DNA of 16,705 bases from Candidatus Alcyoniella australis (GTDB taxonomy: Bacteria > Lernaellota > Lernaellaia > JAVCCG01 > Alcyoniellaceae). Where the stretch lies: positions 1 to 16,705 of the forward strand of contig JAVCCG010000033.1 in the NCBI GenBank assembly GCA_030765605.1. Direction: 5' to 3'. This document shows positions 2,783 to 16,447 of this stretch, piece after piece. Numbering within the stretch: position 1 is the first letter of the stretch; the number at the start of each line of letters is the position of its first letter. The translations under genes and the position numbers were made by a program. Below the pieces are notes generated by a model. The model saw only the letters and a program-made list of their open reading frames with translations, ran no database searches and was not told the DNA's origin.

Positions 2783-4012
2783 TCAGTGCCGCCGCGCAAG
2801 CATGCTGTCGAGCATGCCGTGGGCCAGATCGATCACGCGCGCGCTGTGCGGCACTACGATCCCCATGCTCAGCAGCCTGTAGGTCAGCGAGATCGGCGGA
2901 ATCGGGCAGCCGGAAATAAACCGGCCGCGATCCGCGTGCTCCACCGCGCAGTCGCCGATCACGAACGTCCGCTGCGGATCCAGGTCGTCGGGCAGATCCT
3001 TGACATCGGCGCCGATGATGAAGTTCATGCCGCGCAGCAGCCGCCAGTCGTTGTGTTTGGCGAACGGGTCCAGGGTGCCGCGGACCATCCCGGCGCAGCC
3101 CTGGGTGCAGGCCCGGCCGCTGCCCAGGAACACTCGCACTGACGGGTCGTAGTCCGCGAAGTCGCAGCGCGGACGCACCAGCGCCCTGGCGTGGGAGTTA
3201 AGCAGACTATCGCCGAGCAGCTCGATCTGATTGCGGTCGATGGGGCCCAGTCCCAGCTCGCAGAGCAGTCGCAGATGTTCGATCTCACGCGGCTGATAAC
3301 CCATCAGCAGGCAGCTGATCGCGTCGGCTGCCGGGCCGCAATCCGAACCCACGATCAGTCCCAGCGGCGCGGGATCGCAGTGCATCGGCCCCTGGCCCTG
3401 TCCGGCGACGATCGCGTCGGCAAGCACGAAGTCCGGCGGCCGCGTGCGGTAGAGGTCGGCGATCTTGCGGTGGATGTGGAAGTGGTGGTTGGGCAGCCGC
3501 TCGGGAGCCAGCAGCAGGCCCATGTGGTTCTTCACCGACAGGCTGACCTCCGTGTACATGTTGACCTTGATCTTGGGCAGGCTGATCAGCAGGTCGGCGT
3601 CCATCATCCGCTGCGGCATGCGAAAGCTCGACTCGACGATCGGATTGTCGATCCGCACATCGCAGCGCGGCTCGTCGCATAGATAAAGCGGCTGGGCGAT
3701 TCCGCGGATCAACGGCAGTACGCCCATGGCGTGAAACCCGGATTGCGAACAGCCGACCAGGCAATCCTCGCCGACCCAGACCGTGCGCGCTCCCATGCGC
3801 CGCAGGGCCAGGGCCACACCGGCCACGAACTCGGGCTGCGTGTTGACCCCGCGATTTTTCGGCGGTCGCGCCGGATAGACGAAGCTGGGCTTGAGGAAGA
3901 TTTTGCGACCGCGCGCATCGACCTGCGCCCGTTGCAAGATCAGTTCGATCTTGGCCGCGATTTGTTCGACATCGTATTCTGCCTGCGCCTCAAGCTGCAC
4001 GAGCGGATTCAT
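2783..4012 (-). CDS. DUF362 domain-containing protein
   Basis: 409 residues. DUF362 landmarks are clear: KIFLKPSFV near residue 40, ADLLISLPKIKVNMYTEVSLSVKNHMG at about 139-165, ADLYRTRPPDFVLADAIVAGQGQGP at about 185-209, and LIVGSDCGPAADAISCLLMGYQP at about 219-241. The family is widespread in anaerobes and deltaproteobacteria and is often fused to a 4Fe-4S ferredoxin domain; its reaction is unknown. Here the C-terminal 120 residues carry no CxxCxxC ferredoxin motif, but have C302, C306 (ACTQGC), C355 (GDCA) and C369 (SGCPIPP), which might bind metal. ATG 4012 is preceded by GGAG (plus-strand 4022-4025). The gene stands alone, convergent with the receiver operon and divergent from the DUF4956 run. 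No signal peptide is seen, so it is probably cytoplasmic. Confidence 0.85.
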   Translation of the reverse strand: MNPLVQLEAQAEYDVEQIAAKIELILQRAQVDARGRKIFLKPSFVYPARPPKNRGVNTQPEFVAGVALALRRMGARTVWVGEDCLVGCSQSGFHAMGVLPLIRGIAQPLYLCDEPRCDVRIDNPIVESSFRMPQRMMDADLLISLPKIKVNMYTEVSLSVKNHMGLLLAPERLPNHHFHIHRKIADLYRTRPPDFVLADAIVAGQGQGPMHCDPAPLGLIVGSDCGPAADAISCLLMGYQPREIEHLRLLCELGLGPIDRNQIELLGDSLLNSHARALVRPRCDFADYDPSVRVFLGSGRACTQGCAGMVRGTLDPFAKHNDWRLLRGMNFIIGADVKDLPDDLDPQRTFVIGDCAVEHADRGRFISGCPIPPISLTYRLLSMGIVVPHSARVIDLAHGMLDSMLARRH

Positions 4013-4236: not shown

Positions 4237-4917
4237 TTGGCAGAGCTTTTCGGCGCATATCACCAGGGGATGATCTCCTGGCAGATTGCCCTGCTCTCGT
4301 TTCTGATTGCGGTACTGCTCAGCAGCATGATCTCCAAGACATATCAGTTTACTTACGAGGGGCTCTCCTGGTCCAAGTCGCTGACCCAGGCACTGGTGCT
4401 GGGCAGCGTAGTGACCTGCATGATGATGATGGCCATCGGCGACAACGTGGCGCGCGGCATCGGCGTGTTCGGCACGCTGGCGATCATCCGCTTCCGCACA
4501 AATTTGCGCGATCCGCGCGACATCATCTTCGTCTTCTCCGCGTTGGGCACCGGCGTGGCCGCGGGCGCGCAGAGCTTCGCCGTGGGCATCCTGGGCACCC
4601 TGACCTTCTGCCTGCTGGCGATCGGCATGAAATGGGGCAACATCGGCTCGCTGCGCCAGCACAACGGCTCGATCCGTTTCCAGCTCGCCCCGGGTTCCGA
4701 GTCGCTGGAACAGGTGCGCGGCCTGCTGGGCTCGGGCACGCGCAGCTTCTCGCTGGTGGCGATGAACGAACTGGCTCAGGGCACCTTGATCGACTACACC
4801 TACCAATTACGCCTGCGCAACATCGACAAGGCCGAACAACTGCTGCTCGAGTTGGGCAAGGTCGAGGGGATCCAGGGACTGAAGTTTATCAGCCAAGAAG
4901 GCTCGGTGGAGCTGTAG
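4237..4917 (+). CDS. DUF4956 domain integral membrane protein
   Basis: 226 residues from TTG 4237, with GGGGG at 4225-4230. The DUF4956 signature is strong: a glycine/alanine-rich helix leads into IGDNVARGIGVFGTLAIIRFRTNLRDPRDIIFVFSALGTGVAAG (residues 68-110). The block RFRTxxRDPRD is the family hallmark. Three to four membrane segments are visible: about 14-32, 50-68, and 95-130, which may be two passes. A soluble tail of about 90 residues (from 138) looks like an alpha/beta regulatory domain. The function of DUF4956 is unproven, but in other bacteria the gene is often beside VTC-type polyphosphate polymerases and CotH kinases, both present downstream here. Ten bases separate it from the adaptor gene, so co-transcription is likely. 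I infer an inner-membrane translocation or scaffold role. Confidence 0.85.
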   Translation: MAELFGAYHQGMISWQIALLSFLIAVLLSSMISKTYQFTYEGLSWSKSLTQALVLGSVVTCMMMMAIGDNVARGIGVFGTLAIIRFRTNLRDPRDIIFVFSALGTGVAAGAQSFAVGILGTLTFCLLAIGMKWGNIGSLRQHNGSIRFQLAPGSESLEQVRGLLGSGTRSFSLVAMNELAQGTLIDYTYQLRLRNIDKAEQLLLELGKVEGIQGLKFISQEGSVEL

Positions 4918-4935
4918 CATGGATACTTGCGGCTG

Positions 4936-5847
4936 ATGCGCTCGCGCGCCTGGTTCTGGATCGCCTGGGTGCTGATCGCGCTGGCCGCGGCCTGGCTCTA
5001 CGGCGCGTACCGCAGCCCGGGCAACTACGTGGGCATTGTCGAGGCGCTGCGGCATAACGTCAGCGCACAACTTCCCGGCACACTGATCGAGCTGAGGGTC
5101 GATATCGGCGATCGGGTCGAGGCCGGACAATTATTGGGGCGGGTCCAAGGCATGGACGCGCTTTTGGCAGACGGGCTGCGCGTTCGCAGCGACCTGTTCA
5201 CGCTCCAGTCGCGTCTGCGCGATGAGCTGAGCGGTCTGGCCGCGGACGAGGCCGAGAGCAGCGCGCTGAACTCCGAGATCAAGCGCCTCGAGCAGGCGCG
5301 CGATGCCGGAGTGGTGCGCTCCAGCGAGTTGACCCAACTGCGGCTGCGACGCGCCGCGTTACGCGCCAAGGTCGCGCGCCAGCGTACATTGCTGGCGCAG
5401 CAGACCGGAGAGCAAGCTCCCGTCGAACTTCAGCAAGGGCTCGATCAACTGCTGGCCGCGCCCGATTCCGGCGCCCTGCTCTCGCCGTGCGCCGGAGTAG
5501 TGGTCGAGCGGTTTGCCGCAACGGGAGATACGGTCGACGCCTTTATCCCGCTGCTGATTGTCCAGCAACTCGAGACGACCCACGTCAACGCCTACGTGCC
5601 CGAGCAGAACAATTTGCCAATGGTCCGCGGAGCGCGGGTCATGGTCGGCAGCAAACGACCGGGCATCGTGGAAACCGGCGGCACGATCGTCTTTGTCCAT
5701 CCGGGGTTCACTCTCCTGCCCTTGCGGCTGCTCATCGGACAGCAGCAGACCTGGGCGCGCCAAGTCTACGTTGAGCTCGACCAGGGACACGCCCTGCTGC
5801 CCGGTGAACAGGTGCGGGTCGTGCTGATCGACAAGCCGGAGCAATGA
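4936..5847 (+). CDS. HlyD-type periplasmic adaptor (membrane fusion protein)
   Basis: 303 residues from ATG 4936; an in-frame TTG at 4927 adds three residues, and neither start has a good ribosome site. In order: an N-terminal membrane anchor (about 5-25, AWFWIAWVLIALAAAWLYGAY); the first half of a biotinyl-lipoyl domain (about 33-70, NVSAQLPGTLIELRVDIGDRVEAGQLLG); a charged helical hairpin (about 83-165) typical of adaptors that dock on TolC; the second lipoyl half (about 180-210, GALLSPCAGVVVERFAATGDTV); and a beta-barrel domain to the end. Such proteins bridge an inner-membrane transporter and an outer membrane channel. The coding frame overlaps the TolC-like gene by four bases (ATGA). No ABC, RND or MFS pump is adjacent; the upstream DUF4956 protein is the only inner-membrane candidate. 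Confidence 0.88.
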   Translation: MRSRAWFWIAWVLIALAAAWLYGAYRSPGNYVGIVEALRHNVSAQLPGTLIELRVDIGDRVEAGQLLGRVQGMDALLADGLRVRSDLFTLQSRLRDELSGLAADEAESSALNSEIKRLEQARDAGVVRSSELTQLRLRRAALRAKVARQRTLLAQQTGEQAPVELQQGLDQLLAAPDSGALLSPCAGVVVERFAATGDTVDAFIPLLIVQQLETTHVNAYVPEQNNLPMVRGARVMVGSKRPGIVETGGTIVFVHPGFTLLPLRLLIGQQQTWARQVYVELDQGHALLPGEQVRVVLIDKPEQ

Positions 5848-7172
5848 TCCGCCGAAAACTGCCCGTGGTGGAGTTGCTGCTGATCGTCGCCTGGATCGGC
5901 GTGGGCTGCTACCACCCAAATCCCGCGCCCGCACCCCGCGCAGCATCCGCCATCGACGTGCCCTCCTACCACTCCGAATATGCCGCTGGCCGAACCCTTG
6001 ACGAGCAGGCCGCGGTGGAGCTGGCGTTGCAAAACGACTTTTCCCTGGACGCGCTGGCCCGCGACATCGAGCTGGCGCGATCACAGGCGCGTGTCAGCGG
6101 CGCTTTCCCCGACCCCGAGCTGCGGGTCGGACAGCTCTCGTCGCACGACCTGGACGGCACCCTGCACTCGCTGGAGCTCGGGCTGCGCTTCAGCACCCCC
6201 TACGTCGGCGAGCGCGCGGCCACGCGCGACGCGGACGAGGCGCGGGCCGATCTTTCGCAGTCCGAATTGATCGCCGAACAGATCGACCGCAGCGACTGGG
6301 TGCGGCTGGGATTCTCGCAGATCGTCAGGCTCGAGGGTCTGGTCGAGATCTGCCACAGCGAAGTGCAGTACCGCTCGCAGCTACTCGATCTGCTGCGCAC
6401 TCAGGCCGCGATCAACGAGCGCACCAACATCGAGCTGGTCAACGCCGAGCTCGAGCTGTTCAACGCGCAACAACAGCTGTCAAAGCGCGAAAACGATTTG
6501 CGTACGCTGCAACGTTCGCTGGCCGCGGCCGTGGGATTGGAAACGCTCCCCGCGCTGGAGCCGGTCTTTGAACAGCGTATCGAGCTCGACCGCGAGCAAC
6601 TGCTCTCAGAGGCCTTTGCCGCGCGTCCCGAGCTGCTCGAGACCTCGAGCAACTATCGCCTGTCCCAGGCGCGCCGTCACCTCGAACGAGTCCGAACCAT
6701 CCCCTGGATCAGCTTTGTCGAGCCCTCGTACCGCCGCGAGTACGACGAGGACAACGACGAGACCGAGCACTGGGCTGAGCTGCGTTTCGGCATTGCCCTG
6801 CCGATCTTCAACCTGGGCCGCGTGGGCGTGCGGGCTGAGGAACTGGCAATGCAGCGCGACCTGTCGCGGCTGCGCGGCATCGAAGGCCAAATCGCCATCG
6901 AGCTCGACCAGGCGCTGTCCGAGTATCGACGGCTGTGGGACGACAACGAACAGTTCGCCGCCACCCTGACCCGCCTGGAGGACCAGGTGCGCCAGACCAT
7001 CGAGCTGGGCCGCGCCAACCCCGAGGCCGATCCGCTGGATCTGATCGATCTGCAATTGGAGCTGCTGCAGGTACGACGCGCCCGAGTCGAGTTTCGGGCC
7101 CTGCTTTCCCAGGTGCGCATCGACCTGCTGCGCGCCGTGGGCGAAATCCACAGCGCACAGCCGCCCCACTGA
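5844..7172 (+). CDS. TolC-family outer membrane channel protein
   Basis: 442 residues, ATG inside the upstream stop (ATGA 5844-5847). The N-terminus MIRRKLPVVELLLIVAWIGVGC is a signal peptide ending in a possible lipid-attachment cysteine C22 (the lipobox GVGC is not canonical). The body shows the repeated long amphipathic helices of outer membrane efflux proteins: LDEQAAVELALQNDFSLDAL at about 52-71, PDPELRVGQLS at about 91-101, then long EL/AQ-rich helices. A second repeat contains ELRFGIALPIFNLGRVGVRAEELAMQRDLSRL at about 312-343, the usual second-half FxxPLF-like entry. It should form the trimeric outer membrane part of a tripartite channel with the HlyD-type adaptor. It is the last gene of this run; an AT-rich regulatory gap follows. 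Confidence 0.85.
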   Translation: MIRRKLPVVELLLIVAWIGVGCYHPNPAPAPRAASAIDVPSYHSEYAAGRTLDEQAAVELALQNDFSLDALARDIELARSQARVSGAFPDPELRVGQLSSHDLDGTLHSLELGLRFSTPYVGERAATRDADEARADLSQSELIAEQIDRSDWVRLGFSQIVRLEGLVEICHSEVQYRSQLLDLLRTQAAINERTNIELVNAELELFNAQQQLSKRENDLRTLQRSLAAAVGLETLPALEPVFEQRIELDREQLLSEAFAARPELLETSSNYRLSQARRHLERVRTIPWISFVEPSYRREYDEDNDETEHWAELRFGIALPIFNLGRVGVRAEELAMQRDLSRLRGIEGQIAIELDQALSEYRRLWDDNEQFAATLTRLEDQVRQTIELGRANPEADPLDLIDLQLELLQVRRARVEFRALLSQVRIDLLRAVGEIHSAQPPH

Positions 7173-7424
7173 CATACCCCCCAACGATTAAAAATTATTA
7201 CAAATAGTTATTGGCCCTACATTTAGTAACGCTATCATAGCGCTTCACCATGACGATAAGGTTAATTAACATATTGTTATTAAAGGTGATTCATATCATA
7301 GAGAGCCCGGCACGCTTTGTGCTACTTATGTTGCATGGAAGCTTCGAGATTAACCGCGCCCTTGGTCCCCAATGACTTGGGCGTACGGCGTCAGCATTTG
7401 AGAGTCAACCAGGCGGGATCGAAA
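7173..7424 (+). promoter_or_regulatory. AT-rich regulatory gap upstream of the VTC-domain gene
   Basis: This 250-base gap is far more AT-rich than the flanking genes. It contains a candidate promoter with -35 TTGGCC (7211-7216), a 16-base spacer and -10 TATCAT (7233-7238). A perfect dyad CGCTAT-C-ATAGCG (7230-7242) covers the -10. Downstream lie the perfect palindrome GTTAATTAAC (7261-7270) and the dyad TAACA-TAT-TGTTA (7267-7279). The dense symmetry suggests repressor control of the downstream genes. Confidence 0.45.
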
Positions 7425-8243
7425 ATGAGCAGCAACGGTAGATACGGCACTGTAAGCTCGATCAAGCGTTATGAGAACAAATTCCTAATACCGGAGTCTC
7501 TAAGCGCTGAGATCAGGGATTATATAAGGTTTTTCTCGCACCCCGACCCGCTGTCCGAGGACGGCTTGGGCAACTACACCGTTCACAGCCTCTACCTTGA
7601 CACCCCTGATTTGGCGTTCTACATGGCCAACCATCTGAAGGTCAACTCGCGGCTCAAACCGCGCGTGCGTTTTTTCGGCAATCAGCCCAACGGAACTCTG
7701 TTTCTGGAGGTCAAACGCCGCCAGGGGCAGATCGTCTGGAAAACCAGAGAACGCATCAGCACGGCGATCTGGCCCAAGATCCTGCTCTCTCCGGAAGATG
7801 TCGACGACAACAGCCAAAGCCCCGAGTCCAATATCGAGGATGCCTTTGCCAGCTTCACCAATGTCACGCAGTCTTTTCAGGCGATTCCCATGGCCCACGT
7901 GCGCTATCGGCGCGAGGCGTACGTCAGCGACATCGATAATTACGTGCGGATCACCTTTGACCGGCGGCTCTCCGGCGCCCTGGCCCGGGGCAGCGCCAAT
8001 CTGAATATCGACGAGCATGACATGTTCCATTTCGACGACGCGCACACCAGCAAATTCTTTGAATCGCCCGTGGTGCTTGAGATCAAGTGCGAGTCGCTGA
8101 TTCCGCAGTGGGTCGTGGACCTAGTGCAGCGTTTTCGTCTGACCAAGCGCGGTTTCTCGAAATACTACAACACGATGCGCATGGGGATGTTCGAACACGG
8201 CGGAGCACACGAGGTAAGGGCCGCGCGTTTCATGACCAACTGA
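7425..8243 (+). CDS. VTC-domain (polyphosphate polymerase-like) protein
   Basis: 272 residues from ATG 7425, which has an AGGCGGG ribosome site; in-frame starts at 7317 (TTG) and 7335 (ATG) would add residues outside the domain. VTC / triphosphate-tunnel motifs occur in order: KRYENKFLI (14-22); LYLDTPDLAFY then RLKPRVRFF (57-84, basic residues R76, K78, R80, R82); LFLEVKRRQGQIVWKTR (92-108); HVRYRREAY...NYVRITFDRRL (158-182); and VVLEIKCE...P.WV...FSKYYNT (216-250), with E219, K221 and K246. In yeast Vtc4 this fold makes polyphosphate from ATP in a basic tunnel; bacterial members are annotated as polyphosphate polymerase domain proteins, mostly untested. No membrane segment is present, so it must partner with a membrane protein, plausibly the DUF4956 protein encoded upstream. 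Confidence 0.87.
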   Translation: MSSNGRYGTVSSIKRYENKFLIPESLSAEIRDYIRFFSHPDPLSEDGLGNYTVHSLYLDTPDLAFYMANHLKVNSRLKPRVRFFGNQPNGTLFLEVKRRQGQIVWKTRERISTAIWPKILLSPEDVDDNSQSPESNIEDAFASFTNVTQSFQAIPMAHVRYRREAYVSDIDNYVRITFDRRLSGALARGSANLNIDEHDMFHFDDAHTSKFFESPVVLEIKCESLIPQWVVDLVQRFRLTKRGFSKYYNTMRMGMFEHGGAHEVRAARFMTN

Positions 8244-8320
8244 ATTAAAAAAAGGCTGGCATCGTCGCCCCATCGGCATGACAATGCTCAATGATGAATA
8301 CTATCCAAAGGAGAGATCGC

Positions 8321-8962
8321 ATGTCCCGTAAAACTATCGGCCTTTGGCATTGGGCGCTGCTGGCCATGCTGTTGGCAACACTGCTGGCCATGGGCGCGGC
8401 CTGCGACTCGGGCGACGACGACGATGACGATGACGACGACGTAGATAACCCGGCGCAACCTGCGGCGGGCGAGGCGCTATTCACCGAAATCATGTACGAC
8501 CCGCTGGCACTGGAAGACATCGTGGGCGAGTGGGTCGAGCTGCTTAACACGACCCAGACCGCGTTCAACCTGCGCGGCTGTGTTTTCAGCGACGAAAACG
8601 AAGAGCATCTCAGTACGATCGAGACCGACCTCGCGCTCCCGGCCAACGGCTATCTGATTTTGGGCATCGGCCTGGATGACAACCAAAGCCCGGCCCAGCC
8701 CGACTGGACCTGGGGCGAATACAACCTGGGCAACTCCGGCGATACGGTCAGCCTCACCTGCTCCGGTGAAGTAATCGACCAAGTTGTCTACGACGAAGCC
8801 GCGATGGACTACGACCCGGTGAAGGGCGCCAGCCTGGCCCTCTGTCCGGGCTCCGAGGACACGACAGCCAACGACGACATGGCGGCCTGGCGCTTCTCCA
8901 CCAGCGCGATGTCCGATGGCGACCTGGGCACCCCGCGCGAGGCCAACGACCCCTGTCAGTGA
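8321..8962 (+). CDS. Lipoprotein with lamin-tail domain (LTD)
   Basis: 213 residues from ATG 8321, with AAGGAG at 8308-8313 (an in-frame ATG at 8291 lacks this). The signal peptide (about 1-27, ending LLAMGAAC) puts a lipid-attachment cysteine at C28, although the lipobox is loose. A run of nine Asp follows (32-40). The rest is an LTD: LFTEIMYDPLALEDIVGEWVELLNTTQTAFNLRGCVFSDE (53-92), ALPANGYLILG (106-115), then GDTVSLTCSGEVIDQVVYDE (140-159) and the typical ending GTPREAND. LTDs are immunoglobulin-like beta domains found on secreted bacterial proteins, often alongside CotH domains or nucleases. The stop overlaps the ATG of the first CotH gene (TGATG), so the two are translationally coupled. 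Role is likely surface binding or scaffolding. Confidence 0.85.
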   Translation: MSRKTIGLWHWALLAMLLATLLAMGAACDSGDDDDDDDDDVDNPAQPAAGEALFTEIMYDPLALEDIVGEWVELLNTTQTAFNLRGCVFSDENEEHLSTIETDLALPANGYLILGIGLDDNQSPAQPDWTWGEYNLGNSGDTVSLTCSGEVIDQVVYDEAAMDYDPVKGASLALCPGSEDTTANDDMAAWRFSTSAMSDGDLGTPREANDPCQ

Positions 8963-10593
8963 TGCGGTTGTTTTGGCTGTTGCTGATTCCGATCCTGTGT
9001 TTCACGGCGCTGCCCGGCTGTGAGAGCCCGGACGAGGAAAAAGAAGAAGACAGCGGAGACGACGACGACAGCGTAGACGACGATGATCTTGACGACGACG
9101 ACGATGACGATCAGCTGCCTGCGGTTTGCGACGAGATCTACCAACAGGACAACCTGCCGTTATTCGAAATCCAGATCGCCCAGTCCGACTGGGACGAGCT
9201 GCTCTACAACTACCAATACGGCATGGAGATCCCTGAGCCCCGGTCGTACTTCCCGCTGATCGAGTTCCGCTACGGCGACGAGACGATCAGCAACGCGGCG
9301 ATCAGACTGCGCGGCAGCCCGGACCACTGGTGGCCCGACCCCAAGATGCAATTCAACATCTCGTTCAAACAGTACGACGAGGACGGACGCTTCCGCGGCA
9401 TGCGCAAGCTCAACCTGGACAACGCGCACGGCGATCACACCATTTTCCACGACCGCTTGGGCATGCAGTTCTTCCGCGACCTGGGCGTGCCCGCACCGTG
9501 CGTCAACCACGCTAAGCTCAACATCAACGGCGAGTACTTCGGGCTCTACGTCAACATCGAACACGTTGACCAGGAGTTCCTGCGGCGCAATTTCGGCAAA
9601 CAGGACGAGGGCAACCTGTACAAGAGCATGTCGCACTTCATCTACGAGAAGAAGACCAACGAGTCCGACCCGGACATGAGCGATGTGGAGCTGTTCGAGG
9701 CTGACCTGAACCTCGACGAGCTCGACGCGATCACCGACCTGGACGAGGCGATCGTCGAGTGGGCGGGCGAGGCGCTGGCGCCGCACCTGGACGGCTACTT
9801 CGCCGGCGCGGTGAACTACTACCTCTACAATCACCCCCAGCGCGGGTTCATCTTCATCCCCTGGGACATCGACTACTCGTTCGATCTGGCCCCATACGAG
9901 TTGGACCTGATCGATTTCGTCAGCAGCTGGGGGCATGGAAAGCCCAAACAGTTCCTGACAGTACTCACTGACAACGGCTGGTACCAGCGCTATCTTTCAG
10001 AGATCGAACGCGCACGGACTTACTACGATCCGGAGCTGCTTAATCAGCGGATCGACTTATACGCGGACCAGATCGAGGACGCGATGGCAACCGATCCCAA
10101 CCCGAGTTTCACGCTGGTCGAGCACCAGCAGGCCGAGTCCAACCTGCGCCAACATATTGCGAAACGATGGGAGTTCTCGCAGGGCTGGCTGAACTGCGCT
10201 GGCGGCGAGGTCGAACACCAGACGCTGGTGGCCGGGTCCGTCGATTACCAGGTGATCACCACCCCGTGTTCATGGAACCGCGCCCGGGAGAACTGCGAAC
10301 TGCTCGGCGGCGACCTGGCAGTGCCGCGCAACGCGGACGAACAGACGTTGTTGAGCAACGCGCTGTTCAGCATGGCCCCGGGCAAGGTCTGGATCGGTGC
10401 CAACGACCTGACCCAGGAAGGCCTGTGGACCGACGCTGCGGGCAATCCGTTGAGCCACTTGTTCTGGGGCCCTGGACAGCCTTCGGAACACGACCACATC
10501 GACTGCGTCCAGATGATCGAATACTACGACGGACTGTGGAGTGACGACTACTGCGCACGTCCCCGTCCTTCCGTTTGCACTGCCGACAAATAA
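8962..10593 (+). CDS. CotH kinase–C-type lectin lipoprotein, copy 1
   Basis: 543 residues from ATG 8962 (GTG 8959 is an alternative), overlapping the LTD stop. The signal peptide ends ALPGC with lipid Cys C20. An acidic linker (21-50) contains three Asp runs. The CotH domain spans about 55-410: AAIRLRGSP (112-120), QFNISFKQYDEDGRFRGMRKLNLDN (130-154), LNINGEYFGLYVNIEHVDQEFLRRNFG (186-212) and FIFIPWDIDYSF (296-307), where D302/D304 correspond to the metal-binding Asp of CotH atypical kinases. A C-type lectin domain follows (about 425-540): SWNRARENCELLGGDLA, VWIGANDLTQEGLWTD, WGPGQPSE, DCVQM, GLWSDDYC, with C445/C539 and C515/C531 as the expected disulfides. The ATP-using domain lies outside the inner membrane, which raises a nucleotide-supply question. 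Residue 284 is Val where copy 2 has Asp. Confidence 0.9.
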   Translation: MRLFWLLLIPILCFTALPGCESPDEEKEEDSGDDDDSVDDDDLDDDDDDDQLPAVCDEIYQQDNLPLFEIQIAQSDWDELLYNYQYGMEIPEPRSYFPLIEFRYGDETISNAAIRLRGSPDHWWPDPKMQFNISFKQYDEDGRFRGMRKLNLDNAHGDHTIFHDRLGMQFFRDLGVPAPCVNHAKLNINGEYFGLYVNIEHVDQEFLRRNFGKQDEGNLYKSMSHFIYEKKTNESDPDMSDVELFEADLNLDELDAITDLDEAIVEWAGEALAPHLDGYFAGAVNYYLYNHPQRGFIFIPWDIDYSFDLAPYELDLIDFVSSWGHGKPKQFLTVLTDNGWYQRYLSEIERARTYYDPELLNQRIDLYADQIEDAMATDPNPSFTLVEHQQAESNLRQHIAKRWEFSQGWLNCAGGEVEHQTLVAGSVDYQVITTPCSWNRARENCELLGGDLAVPRNADEQTLLSNALFSMAPGKVWIGANDLTQEGLWTDAAGNPLSHLFWGPGQPSEHDHIDCVQMIEYYDGLWSDDYCARPRPSVCTADK

Positions 10594-10607
10594 GGATGGC
10601 GCTGAAA

Positions 10608-12230
10608 ATGAACATCTCGCGGTTCACAATTTTCGCAATCTGCCTGATGCTTTTACTGGGCCTGCTCTCGATCGCCTGCGACGAATCGGGCGATGATGAT
10701 GACGACGATGCCGCAGACGATGACACCGGCGACGACGACGACGACATTGATCTCCCCGGCGCCTGCGACGAGGTGTTCGACCCAGATCAGCTTCCGACTT
10801 ACGATATCCAGATCGACCCCGGCCAGTGGGCCAACCTGCAGTACGAGTGGGCCAATTGGGCCGATCGCATGGACGAGGGACTGCCGACCAAGCCCTACCA
10901 CCCTTTGATCTCCTTTAAGTACGCTGACGAGGTCGTGGAGAACGCCGCGATCCGACTCAAGGGCAGCGAGCTGAACTGGGGATCGAGCCCCGATAAGATG
11001 CAGTTCAACATCTCTTTCAAGCAGTACGACGACAGCGGTCGCTGGCACGGCATGCGCAAGGTCAATCTCGACGCGCCGCACAACGACCCGAGCATGCTGC
11101 GCGAACGAATCGCCTTCTGGTACTTCCGCGAGCTTGGCTTGTCTGCACCGTGCGCCAACAGCGCGCGGCTGATGGTCAACGGCGAGTACTATGGTCTGTT
11201 CACCAACATCGAGCATGTGGACCAGGAGTTTCTAGAGCGTAACTTCGGTAAGGACGCAGCCGAGGGCAACTTATATAAAACCGGCGAGAAGCAGACCAAC
11301 GAGTCCGACCCGGATATCAGCGATTGGGAACAGTTCGATTCCGAGTTGACCCTGGAGCAGCTCGAACAGCTTGTAGACCTGGAGCAGGCAGTGCAGATGT
11401 GGGTCGGCGAGGCGGTCATCCCCCAGGTCGACGGCTATTGGGCCGGCGGCGACAACTGGTACATCTACAACCACCCCCAGCGCGGCTTCGTGTTCATTCC
11501 CTGGGACAACGACTACTCCTTTACCGTTGCCGGAATGAACGTCGACCCGATCACTTGGGAGGCCCCGTGGGGCCACGGCAAGCCCGCACACTTCTTGACG
11601 ATGATCCAAGACACCGACTGGTTCCTGTATTTCCTCGAGACTTTCGATTCGGCGCTGTACGTGTTCGACCCCGAGGTGCTGCACGCGATGATCGACCAGT
11701 ACGCCGAACAGATCGCCGAGGCAATGGACGCGGACGCCAACAAGCCCTACTCCACCGACGACCATCTGGACGCAATCGACGCAACCTACACGCACGTGGA
11801 ACAGCGCCAGCTCTTTGGTTTTGAGTGGCTCGACTGCAAGAACGGCGCGGGGACGTTCGAGGAATACGAGTTCGGCGGACGGACCTTCGGCGTCTGGCAC
11901 ACCTCCTGCTCGTGGCACAACGCCCTGAACTACTGCCAGTACCTGGGCGGCAGCCTGGCGGTCCCCCTTGACGCGGACGATCAGTTGTTCCTGACCAACA
12001 CCTTGTTGGGGCTGATCGATGACGATTGGTGGATCGGCGCCAACGACATTGACGAAGACGACGTCTGGACCGACCCGGACGGAACGATCCTCTCGTACCT
12101 TCCTTGGGGGCCGGATCAACCCTCCGAAAGCCCGGGCGTTGATTGCGCCACCATGGACGATTACCGCGACGGCCTATGGGCCGGAGACTACTGCAGTAGG
12201 CCCCACCCCTCGGTCTGCGTAATGCCCTAG
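10608..12230 (+). CDS. CotH kinase–C-type lectin lipoprotein, copy 2
   Basis: 540 residues from ATG 10608 (AAGGA 11 bases upstream; ATG 10596 and TTG 10575 are in frame). The signal peptide ends LLSIAC with lipid Cys C24, followed by a broken poly-Asp linker (25-48). Its CotH domain is collinear with copy 1: QFNISFKQYDDSGRWHGMRKVNLD (132-155), LMVNGEYYGLFTNIEHVDQEFLERNFG (188-214), GYWAGGDNWYIYNHPQRGFVFIPWDNDYSF (276-305). D282 and D300/D302 are candidates for the catalytic and metal-binding Asp. The C-type lectin domain (about 425-537) has CSWHNALNYCQYLGGSLAVP, WWIGANDIDEDDVWTDPDG, WGPDQPSE, DCATM and GLWAGDYC. Extensive identity with copy 1, just 14 bases away, shows tandem duplication followed by divergence. 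The gene ends in a hairpin that begins at its stop codon. Confidence 0.9.
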   Translation: MNISRFTIFAICLMLLLGLLSIACDESGDDDDDDAADDDTGDDDDDIDLPGACDEVFDPDQLPTYDIQIDPGQWANLQYEWANWADRMDEGLPTKPYHPLISFKYADEVVENAAIRLKGSELNWGSSPDKMQFNISFKQYDDSGRWHGMRKVNLDAPHNDPSMLRERIAFWYFRELGLSAPCANSARLMVNGEYYGLFTNIEHVDQEFLERNFGKDAAEGNLYKTGEKQTNESDPDISDWEQFDSELTLEQLEQLVDLEQAVQMWVGEAVIPQVDGYWAGGDNWYIYNHPQRGFVFIPWDNDYSFTVAGMNVDPITWEAPWGHGKPAHFLTMIQDTDWFLYFLETFDSALYVFDPEVLHAMIDQYAEQIAEAMDADANKPYSTDDHLDAIDATYTHVEQRQLFGFEWLDCKNGAGTFEEYEFGGRTFGVWHTSCSWHNALNYCQYLGGSLAVPLDADDQLFLTNTLLGLIDDDWWIGANDIDEDDVWTDPDGTILSYLPWGPDQPSESPGVDCATMDDYRDGLWAGDYCSRPHPSVCVMP

Positions 12231-15052: not shown

Positions 15053-16447
15053 ATGAGAACTCTCGTTCCCTATCTCGCTTGGTATAAAAAACGGACCGGG
15101 TGGGGCCTGGACAGGTGGTCCGCCATGGCGCTCTCGGCCTTGTTGGTAGGCACTCTTTGCTGCTGCGCAATCTCACACGCACATCAGGAAGATTTGATTT
15201 ATACCAACGCCCTTGAGCTGGGCTCCCTGAAACAGGGATTGCTCGGCAACGATGTTGTGCGCGAGCTTGCCGATGCTGCGGCTGGAAAGCGTTTCATCGC
15301 TTTGGGTGAGGGAGACCACTTCGTAGCAGAGAAGTACGGCTATCGGCTGGCGTTTCTGCGAACGCTGGTCATCGATCAGGGAGTGCGCCTGATCGCGATG
15401 GAGATCGGCGGCTCCGATGCCCGTCGCATCGACGAGTTCCTGCGAACCGGCGATGAGGGTTGGCTCAATCAGGTGGTGCTCTACGGCTTTCGCGGCAACA
15501 CCGATTCTGAACGCCGTGAACTCAGTCCGTTTCCTCCCGTACCACCGGCCTCTTGCGAAGAGCGCTTCATCACAGCCGAACGCTCTTTTTGGAAAGACGT
15601 GCACGAGCTCAGCGAAGAAGCGCGATCCATTGACGGCCGACGGATCGAACTATACGGATTTGACTTCGATGCCAAGCCCGGCGGGGGTTACCGGGACGCT
15701 CGCGATGCCCTTGCGCAATGCTCGGCAGACCCGTTTGTCGATCAATTGCGTGCAGCGCTGACCCCACCAAGCGGATCGGGCGGCAGGGCTGAAATCGCCC
15801 GCATCAGGACGCTGGCCCAAGACTTTAGTGCGGCCCGGGACAGGCTTGACACATCCTGCGGGGATGACGCCGCTGGGATTGTCGCTCGCGATCTGCAACT
15901 CTTGGCATTGTCCTACGAAATCGCAATCGACTGGTCGGCTGCGGGCAATGACCTCGACGCTCAACGCGCAAGATTCGTGCGACGGGAAGCTCTGATGTTT
16001 GAGAGGATGAGCCTGCTTGCGCAACTCAGGCCTGGCGAACGCATCGTGTTGCTGGGGCACAACCTTCACCTCTGCAGATCTTCCACCTCTCTGCGATTTG
16101 GTCCCGACGGGCATGACCGGCCCATGTGGTCGAGCGTTGTCACTGAGCTTGAGCAATCCATGCCCGGCTCCACCTACATCGTCTGGTTGCTGTACGGCGA
16201 AGGTTCCCGACTGTATCCGACCCCGGAAGACGGATGTGATTCATTGGTCCGACTTCGCAAAGGTTCGCTCGAAGCAATGCTCAGCCAGCAGGGGGAGCAG
16301 TTTTTCCTGCCACTAAGATCAGTGCCGCGCGGAACCTGGATTGATCGCAAAATCGGGTTCGGCACACCGACCTCGTACGCCAGCGGGCCCTTGCGTGACG
16401 TTGTCGATGCGATCGTTTTTTCAAGAAGTGCCGAGGCAAGTCGCTAG
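15053..16447 (+). CDS. Erythromycin esterase family protein, exported or membrane-anchored
   Basis: 464 residues from ATG 15053; ATG 15125 (440 residues) has a better ribosome site, AGGTGG at 15113-15118, so the start is uncertain. The segment MALSALLVGTLCCCAISHAH (25-44) is a hydrophobic export signal or anchor, and its three Cys could allow lipidation. Erythromycin-esterase fold (PF05139) motifs: FIALGEGDHF (81-90, with E86 and H89 matching the GExxH of EreA/EreB), LIAMEIGGSDARRIDEFLRTG (113-133, E117), GFDFD (202-206), RREALMFERM (310-319) and LLGHNLHL (333-340, H336 and H339). Ere enzymes open macrolide rings, but most homologues are uncharacterised and need not give resistance. Known Ere proteins are generally cytoplasmic, so the N-terminal signal is unusual. 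It starts 14 bases after wecE. Codon use is less biased than in its neighbours. Confidence 0.82.
   Translation: MRTLVPYLAWYKKRTGWGLDRWSAMALSALLVGTLCCCAISHAHQEDLIYTNALELGSLKQGLLGNDVVRELADAAAGKRFIALGEGDHFVAEKYGYRLAFLRTLVIDQGVRLIAMEIGGSDARRIDEFLRTGDEGWLNQVVLYGFRGNTDSERRELSPFPPVPPASCEERFITAERSFWKDVHELSEEARSIDGRRIELYGFDFDAKPGGGYRDARDALAQCSADPFVDQLRAALTPPSGSGGRAEIARIRTLAQDFSAARDRLDTSCGDDAAGIVARDLQLLALSYEIAIDWSAAGNDLDAQRARFVRREALMFERMSLLAQLRPGERIVLLGHNLHLCRSSTSLRFGPDGHDRPMWSSVVTELEQSMPGSTYIVWLLYGEGSRLYPTPEDGCDSLVRLRKGSLEAMLSQQGEQFFLPLRSVPRGTWIDRKIGFGTPTSYASGPLRDVVDAIVFSRSAEASR

Follow-up and report, generated by a model that had tools for sequence, protein, structure and literature searches.

The stretch of DNA that we analyzed (the window, 16,705 nucleotides) is one entire contig (C33) of the 4.29 Mb, 98% complete assembly of Candidatus Alcyoniella australis, whose closest relatives among the genomes that we compared share only its class. 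On its plus strand, between positions 4237 and 12230, lie seven genes that an original prediction, made from the letters alone, had assigned to an envelope system, and each gene product matched the family named there above the Pfam cut-off. In order, they encode a DUF4956 (PF16316) membrane protein (4237–4917; 3.5e-13, 50.1 bits against a cut-off of 30.6); a HlyD-type periplasmic adaptor with an N-terminal transmembrane helix, a lipoyl domain, and a coiled-coil hairpin (4927–5847; HlyD_D23, 2e-7, and HlyD_3, 5e-7); an OEP/TolC-type outer-membrane channel (5844–7172; 1.6e-15); a VTC-domain protein (PF09359), a triphosphate tunnel (TTM) enzyme resembling polyphosphate polymerases (7425–8243; 2.5e-36, 125.9 bits against a cut-off of 23); a lamin tail domain (LTD) protein (8291–8962; 3.1e-11); and two proteins, 48% identical to each other, that combine a CotH kinase-like domain with a C-type lectin domain (8959–10593 and 10596–12230; CotH, 5.5e-34, 118.6 bits, and 4e-36, 125.6 bits; Lectin_C, 1.6e-15 and 4.9e-14). 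We conclude that this is a real, conserved module, for which we infer a mechanism below.

The genes are tightly packed, with a 9 bp spacing between DUF4956 and the adaptor and 4 bp overlaps at the adaptor:channel and LTD:CotH junctions, which suggests that each half of the set (DUF4956 to the channel, and VTC to the second CotH) is cotranscribed. An AT-rich intergenic gap of 252 bp (7173–7424) separates the halves. The four promoter-like matches around it do not exceed chance expectation (2.3 ± 1.6), so a single transcript and two transcripts are both possible. Alternative starts are available for DUF4956 (TTG at 4237 or ATG at 4270), VTC (TTG at 7317 or ATG at 7425), and the second CotH (TTG at 10575 or ATG at 10596).

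We surveyed the neighborhoods of 93 DUF4956 loci, 80 of which came from a scan of a genome collection. VTC was a same-strand neighbor at 83 of these loci and CotH at 53, and HlyD was near DUF4956 at 23. When copies within 4 kb were compared with copies beyond that distance over similar lengths, the counts were 83:0 for VTC, 57:1 for CotH, and 23:2 for HlyD, the enrichment of HlyD being tenfold. The adaptor was near DUF4956 at 20 of 49 diderm loci versus 0 of 29 monoderm loci, as labeled from record titles. In a sample of 98 diverse genomes, 13 carried DUF4956; VTC was present in 11 of these, each time close by, versus 0 of the 85 without DUF4956. The same pattern was obtained with 118 Cytophagales genomes, in which VTC was present in 11 of 17 genomes with DUF4956 versus 0 of 101 without it (p=1.3e-11), all 14 intact VTC genes adjoined DUF4956, and CotH was present in 16 of 17 versus 30 of 101 (p=5e-7). 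The association of CotH, VTC, DUF4956, adaptor, and channel is thus far beyond chance, and a Pfam tally of 80 neighbor proteins found no additional constant partner. At one locus, the gene immediately behind DUF4956-VTC encodes a phytase-type histidine phosphatase of branch 2 (L038:10793-12028), and at another (L027) a metallophosphoesterase gene follows DUF4956.

The core of the set, whose families the original prediction noted as neighbors in other bacteria, has been published: cotH, a polyphosphate polymerase gene (VTC), DUF4956, and DUF4832 are accessory genes beside the Gram-positive pelDEADAFG cluster (PMC7112168), and NELoc-2 of C. perfringens is a related locus (PMC2879425). In agreement with that work, the VTC-DUF4956-CotH set at three monoderm loci (L089, L092, and L055) adjoins polysaccharide genes of the PelF and GT2 types, and the synthases vary (PelF-type; GT2 with MBOAT and AlgX; GT2 with HEAT). 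The window shares with the pel accessory cluster the grouping of CotH, VTC, and DUF4956 and a surface-polymer context, but adds the adaptor, the channel, and the lectin domain on CotH; none of the scanned genes of the window is a pel gene, and the rest of the genome was not searched for them. The adaptor-channel variant appears to be undescribed in the open-access literature that we searched, in which no paper reports the full set; the original prediction likewise knew of no such system.

Adaptor, channel, and DUF4956 are contiguous at nine loci, in two gene orders. The order of the window, DUF4956-HlyD-OEP, recurs in a class-mate (G004) as CotH-DUF4956-HlyD-OEP-VTC (L026) and in a distant genome (G094) as DUF4956-HlyD-OEP-VTC-LTD (L024), both contiguous, as well as in Algoriphagus, with CotH in front (L029), and in Cyclobacterium, where OEP is broken into two frames (L030). 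The two halves of the window (4237–7172 and 7425–12230), whose separation in relatives would have spoken against a single system, are thus joined directly in L026 and L024. The neighborhood search that had been proposed for the combination also recovered a second order in Cytophagales, HlyD-(VTC)-DUF4956-OEP, with VTC at L153 and L042 and without it at L155 and L157. L155 is a bare three-gene unit, HlyD-DUF4956-OEP, flanked by genes on the opposite strand and with no other transporter. In a phylogenetic tree, the DUF4956 proteins of the first order formed one clade (support 100/98) that spans distant lineages and stands apart from the group of HlyD-VTC-DUF4956 loci; in a quick tree, those of the second order grouped with the latter. 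A local TolC profile seeded from the window picked up no more than two sequences and was replaced by one built on Pfam-checked OEPs; for loci other than those listed, the numbers of OEPs are minimum values. HlyD was called with an iterated profile; Pfam spot-checks were weak or unmatched for L054, L155, and L157, for which the assignment comes from the profile and an alignment (A6). In the same alignment, the adaptors of HlyD-VTC-DUF4956 loci carry, in the lipoyl region, an insert of ~30 residues with a conserved RGD that is missing in the window type, and the adaptor of L026 (L026:9075-11141) has a C-terminal extension of ~300 amino acids with no Pfam match.

MacA and EmrA are the nearest fold matches of the window adaptor (E about 2e-17). 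With its OEP channel, the set therefore resembles MacAB-TolC, EmrAB-TolC, and type I secretion systems, but we found no ABC, MFS, or RND pump among the scanned genes of the window, nor in the other adaptor-channel units as far as they were scanned, and DUF4956 stands in the place of the pump. With no pump among the scanned genes of these units, DUF4956 is the best candidate for the inner-membrane partner, and because DUF4956-HlyD-OEP persists in genomes without VTC, it is DUF4956, and not VTC, to which the adaptor and channel belong. We consider it reasonably likely that DUF4956 forms a physical complex with the adaptor and the channel.

DUF4956 is, by profile comparison, a distant relative of MgtC/SapB. 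When profiles of 79 DUF4956 and 12 MgtC proteins were aligned with hhalign, they matched over 207 columns with a probability of 97.8% (E 1.2e-12), compared with 0.1% for unrelated control profiles. The Pfam MgtC model (PF02308) had no direct match in the window DUF4956 (host genome G000), and it matched the DUF4956 proteins of G039 (1.6e-6) and G004 (1.7e-4) below its cut-off. An AlphaFold model (pLDDT 89) has five transmembrane helices followed by a C-terminal beta-alpha-beta-beta-alpha-beta domain; this domain matched ACT-like domains in the PDB, the C-domain of MgtC (2lqj) among them, and these matches cover the ACT-like part only and not the membrane half. The two families thus share five helices, an ACT-like domain, and full-length profile similarity, but DUF4956 is a separate family with partners of its own and its own invariant RFR...D motif (R85, F86, R87, and D95, invariant in all 79 sequences). 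The most basic loop, which contains the RFR residues, lies between helices 3 and 4, and by the positive-inside rule both this loop and the ACT-like domain would be cytoplasmic. We also considered a Vtc1-like channel as a model for DUF4956, but the sequence gave it no support and profile comparison favors MgtC. The kinship with MgtC, too, appears to be undescribed in the literature searched.

Ten active-site positions of yeast Vtc4, numbered as in the structure papers and checked against the chain numbering, were mapped onto the window VTC protein by profile alignment. All ten are identical (K200=K19, R264=R80, R266=R82, K281=K97, K294=K106, R361=R163, R373=R175, E426=E219, K428=K221, and K458=K246), and they vary little or not at all among 84 loci. 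R15 and K221 of the window protein are basic, as in the polymerase, at positions that are glutamate in hydrolytic TTM enzymes (PMC4641920). The window VTC protein is a candidate for making polyphosphate from a nucleotide. Like the yeast Vtc1-Vtc5 complex, the window pairs a tunnel enzyme that has matching active-site residues with a membrane partner that may take the chain across. Unlike that complex, its VTC protein (272 amino acids) consists of the VTC domain, with no SPX or Vtc1-like (DUF202) transmembrane domain found by Pfam; the partner is MgtC-like, and an outer-membrane route is added.

The two CotH proteins, which are the only ones in the host genome, carry aspartate pairs (D278/D303 in the first copy and D279/D304 in the second) that align with the Bacillus spore-coat kinase CotH (5jd9) as equivalents of D228 and D251, mutation of which inactivates CotH (PMC7821199). 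They may phosphorylate surface proteins or polymers. They differ from Bacillus CotH in having a lipoprotein-like export signal and a C-terminal C-type lectin domain, and no spore context was seen. The lectin domains have QPS in place of EPN/QPD and no WND, so the usual sugar-binding motifs are absent. LTD, both CotH proteins, and OEP have lipoprotein-like N-termini (a hydrophobic stretch and then cysteine) that do not fit a strict lipobox pattern, and Asp-rich linkers lie right behind the signal-like N-termini of LTD and the CotH proteins (8410–8450, 9050–9140, and 10690–10745). The single CotH of G004 sits in the operon (L026). LTD and the lectin domains do not belong to the conserved core and were added locally; LTD also occurs at two of three Poribacteria loci (L051, L063, and L071). 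An apparent loss of a catalytic aspartate in deltaproteobacterial CotH proteins was dropped from consideration because the alignment there may be shifted.

The seven genes probably build a conduit that spans the inner and outer membranes of this Gram-negative cell. The sequence itself shows how the genes are linked, which domains and active-site residues they encode, that DUF4956 is kin to MgtC, and what fold the adaptor has; the cargo, the transport route, and the donor for the kinases we infer. VTC would make polyphosphate from ATP at the cytoplasmic face, and the chain would pass through DUF4956, its membrane partner. The adaptor would link DUF4956 to the channel, so that the product arrives at the outer surface, where the CotH kinases (here bearing lectins) and the LTD protein would modify it or work together with it; the simplest version is that they phosphorylate proteins or polymers of the surface. 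The strict dependence of VTC on DUF4956 suggests that DUF4956 handles what VTC makes, much as synthesis is coupled to translocation in the VTC complex of eukaryotes (PMC4641920). We tentatively favor the view that the widespread VTC-DUF4956-CotH set is present in the window in a diderm form, in which it is connected to a conduit of its own through the envelope. With slightly more reserve, we name polyphosphate as the likeliest cargo. It is improbable that CotH uses exported polyphosphate as its phosphate donor, and a little more so that the set represents a novel kind of tripartite machine with an MgtC-like protein in place of the pump, which would carry VTC polyphosphate to the surface and give extracytoplasmic CotH an ATP-free donor.

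The distribution of VTC and the polyphosphate kinase PPK1 fits polyphosphate as a common thread without proving it. One or the other is present in all nine adaptor-channel genomes: the host, G004, and G094 have VTC without PPK1, and PPK1 is present in all four that lack VTC. None of the seven genomes of the host class (G000–G006) has PPK1, and of the two genes G000 and G004 carry VTC only. Several observations weigh against polyphosphate export through this conduit. VTC is missing genome-wide from those four genomes (G098, G099, G221, and G136), which belong to two distinct clades of DUF4956, so VTC is dispensable for the conduit; PPK1 could stand in for it, yet PPK1 is common in Bacteroidota. 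In the three Poribacteria that keep DUF4956-CotH, both VTC and PPK1 are absent from the genome. T198 of Vtc4 corresponds to E17 in the window protein, which resembles hydrolytic TTM enzymes (PMC4641920). OEP was not seen beside most HlyD-VTC-DUF4956 loci, the OEPs of L024 and L029 fall below the Pfam cut-off and were called with the local profile, and a second HlyD-OEP pair lies a few kb away in L024. Surface placement is deduced solely from signal-like N-termini. Finally, DUF4956 proteins are not known to transport anything, and MgtC itself is known as a regulator, not an exporter.

These observations have to be set against three other explanations. DUF4956-HlyD-OEP might be a true tripartite exporter whose cargo is a surface polymer precursor, a peptide, or an ion, with VTC as a local supplier of polyphosphate or another signal that acts as fuel or regulator, and with CotH modifying the exported material. 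The persistence of the trio without VTC agrees with this, as do the varied polysaccharide synthases that adjoin monoderm sets (PMC7112168), but VTC never occurred without an adjoining DUF4956 in our samples and no other gene that might make a cargo is shared by all the loci, and we regard this explanation as rather unlikely. Somewhat more doubtful is a role for DUF4956 as an MgtC-like regulator, in which the ACT-like domain would sense a metabolite and control VTC or the assembly of surface polymers, with HlyD and OEP serving an unlinked pump. The MgtC kinship, the ACT-like domain, and the frequent lack of OEP at HlyD-VTC-DUF4956 loci would be explained, but not the standalone unit at L155, the retention of the trio in two gene orders without a pump gene, or the absence of HlyD from all monoderm loci. 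That an efflux pair lies next to a VTC/CotH cluster by chance, or as a merely local arrangement, as the 252 bp gap and the commonness of HlyD and OEP families might suggest, is very improbable and was rejected on the neighborhood survey: the arrangement recurs in several phyla and two orders, with strong clade support and HlyD enrichment.

CotH, VTC, and DUF4956 are found together in many phyla, and its ties to MgtC and to an adaptor and channel suggest for DUF4956 a concrete, testable role as an inner-membrane conduit. If DUF4956 has this role, tripartite exporters would include a type that has no pump, there would be a way for Gram-negative cells to place polyphosphate or a similar polymer on their surface, and extracytoplasmic kinases, which work where little ATP is available, might have a supply of phosphate.

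Elsewhere in the window, a DUF362 gene on the minus strand (2783–4012) is divergent from DUF4956, and DUF362 genes also lie within 10 kb of DUF4956, not adjacent to it, at two Chloroflexi loci (L072 and L091). An FRG-domain protein (Pfam FRG, 9.3e-17) is encoded at 393–1445 on the plus strand; the FRG domain is frequent in defense-related genes. An erythromycin-esterase-like protein (15053–16447, plus strand; Pfam, 1.1e-9) is preceded by ABC1 kinase and DegT aminotransferase genes.

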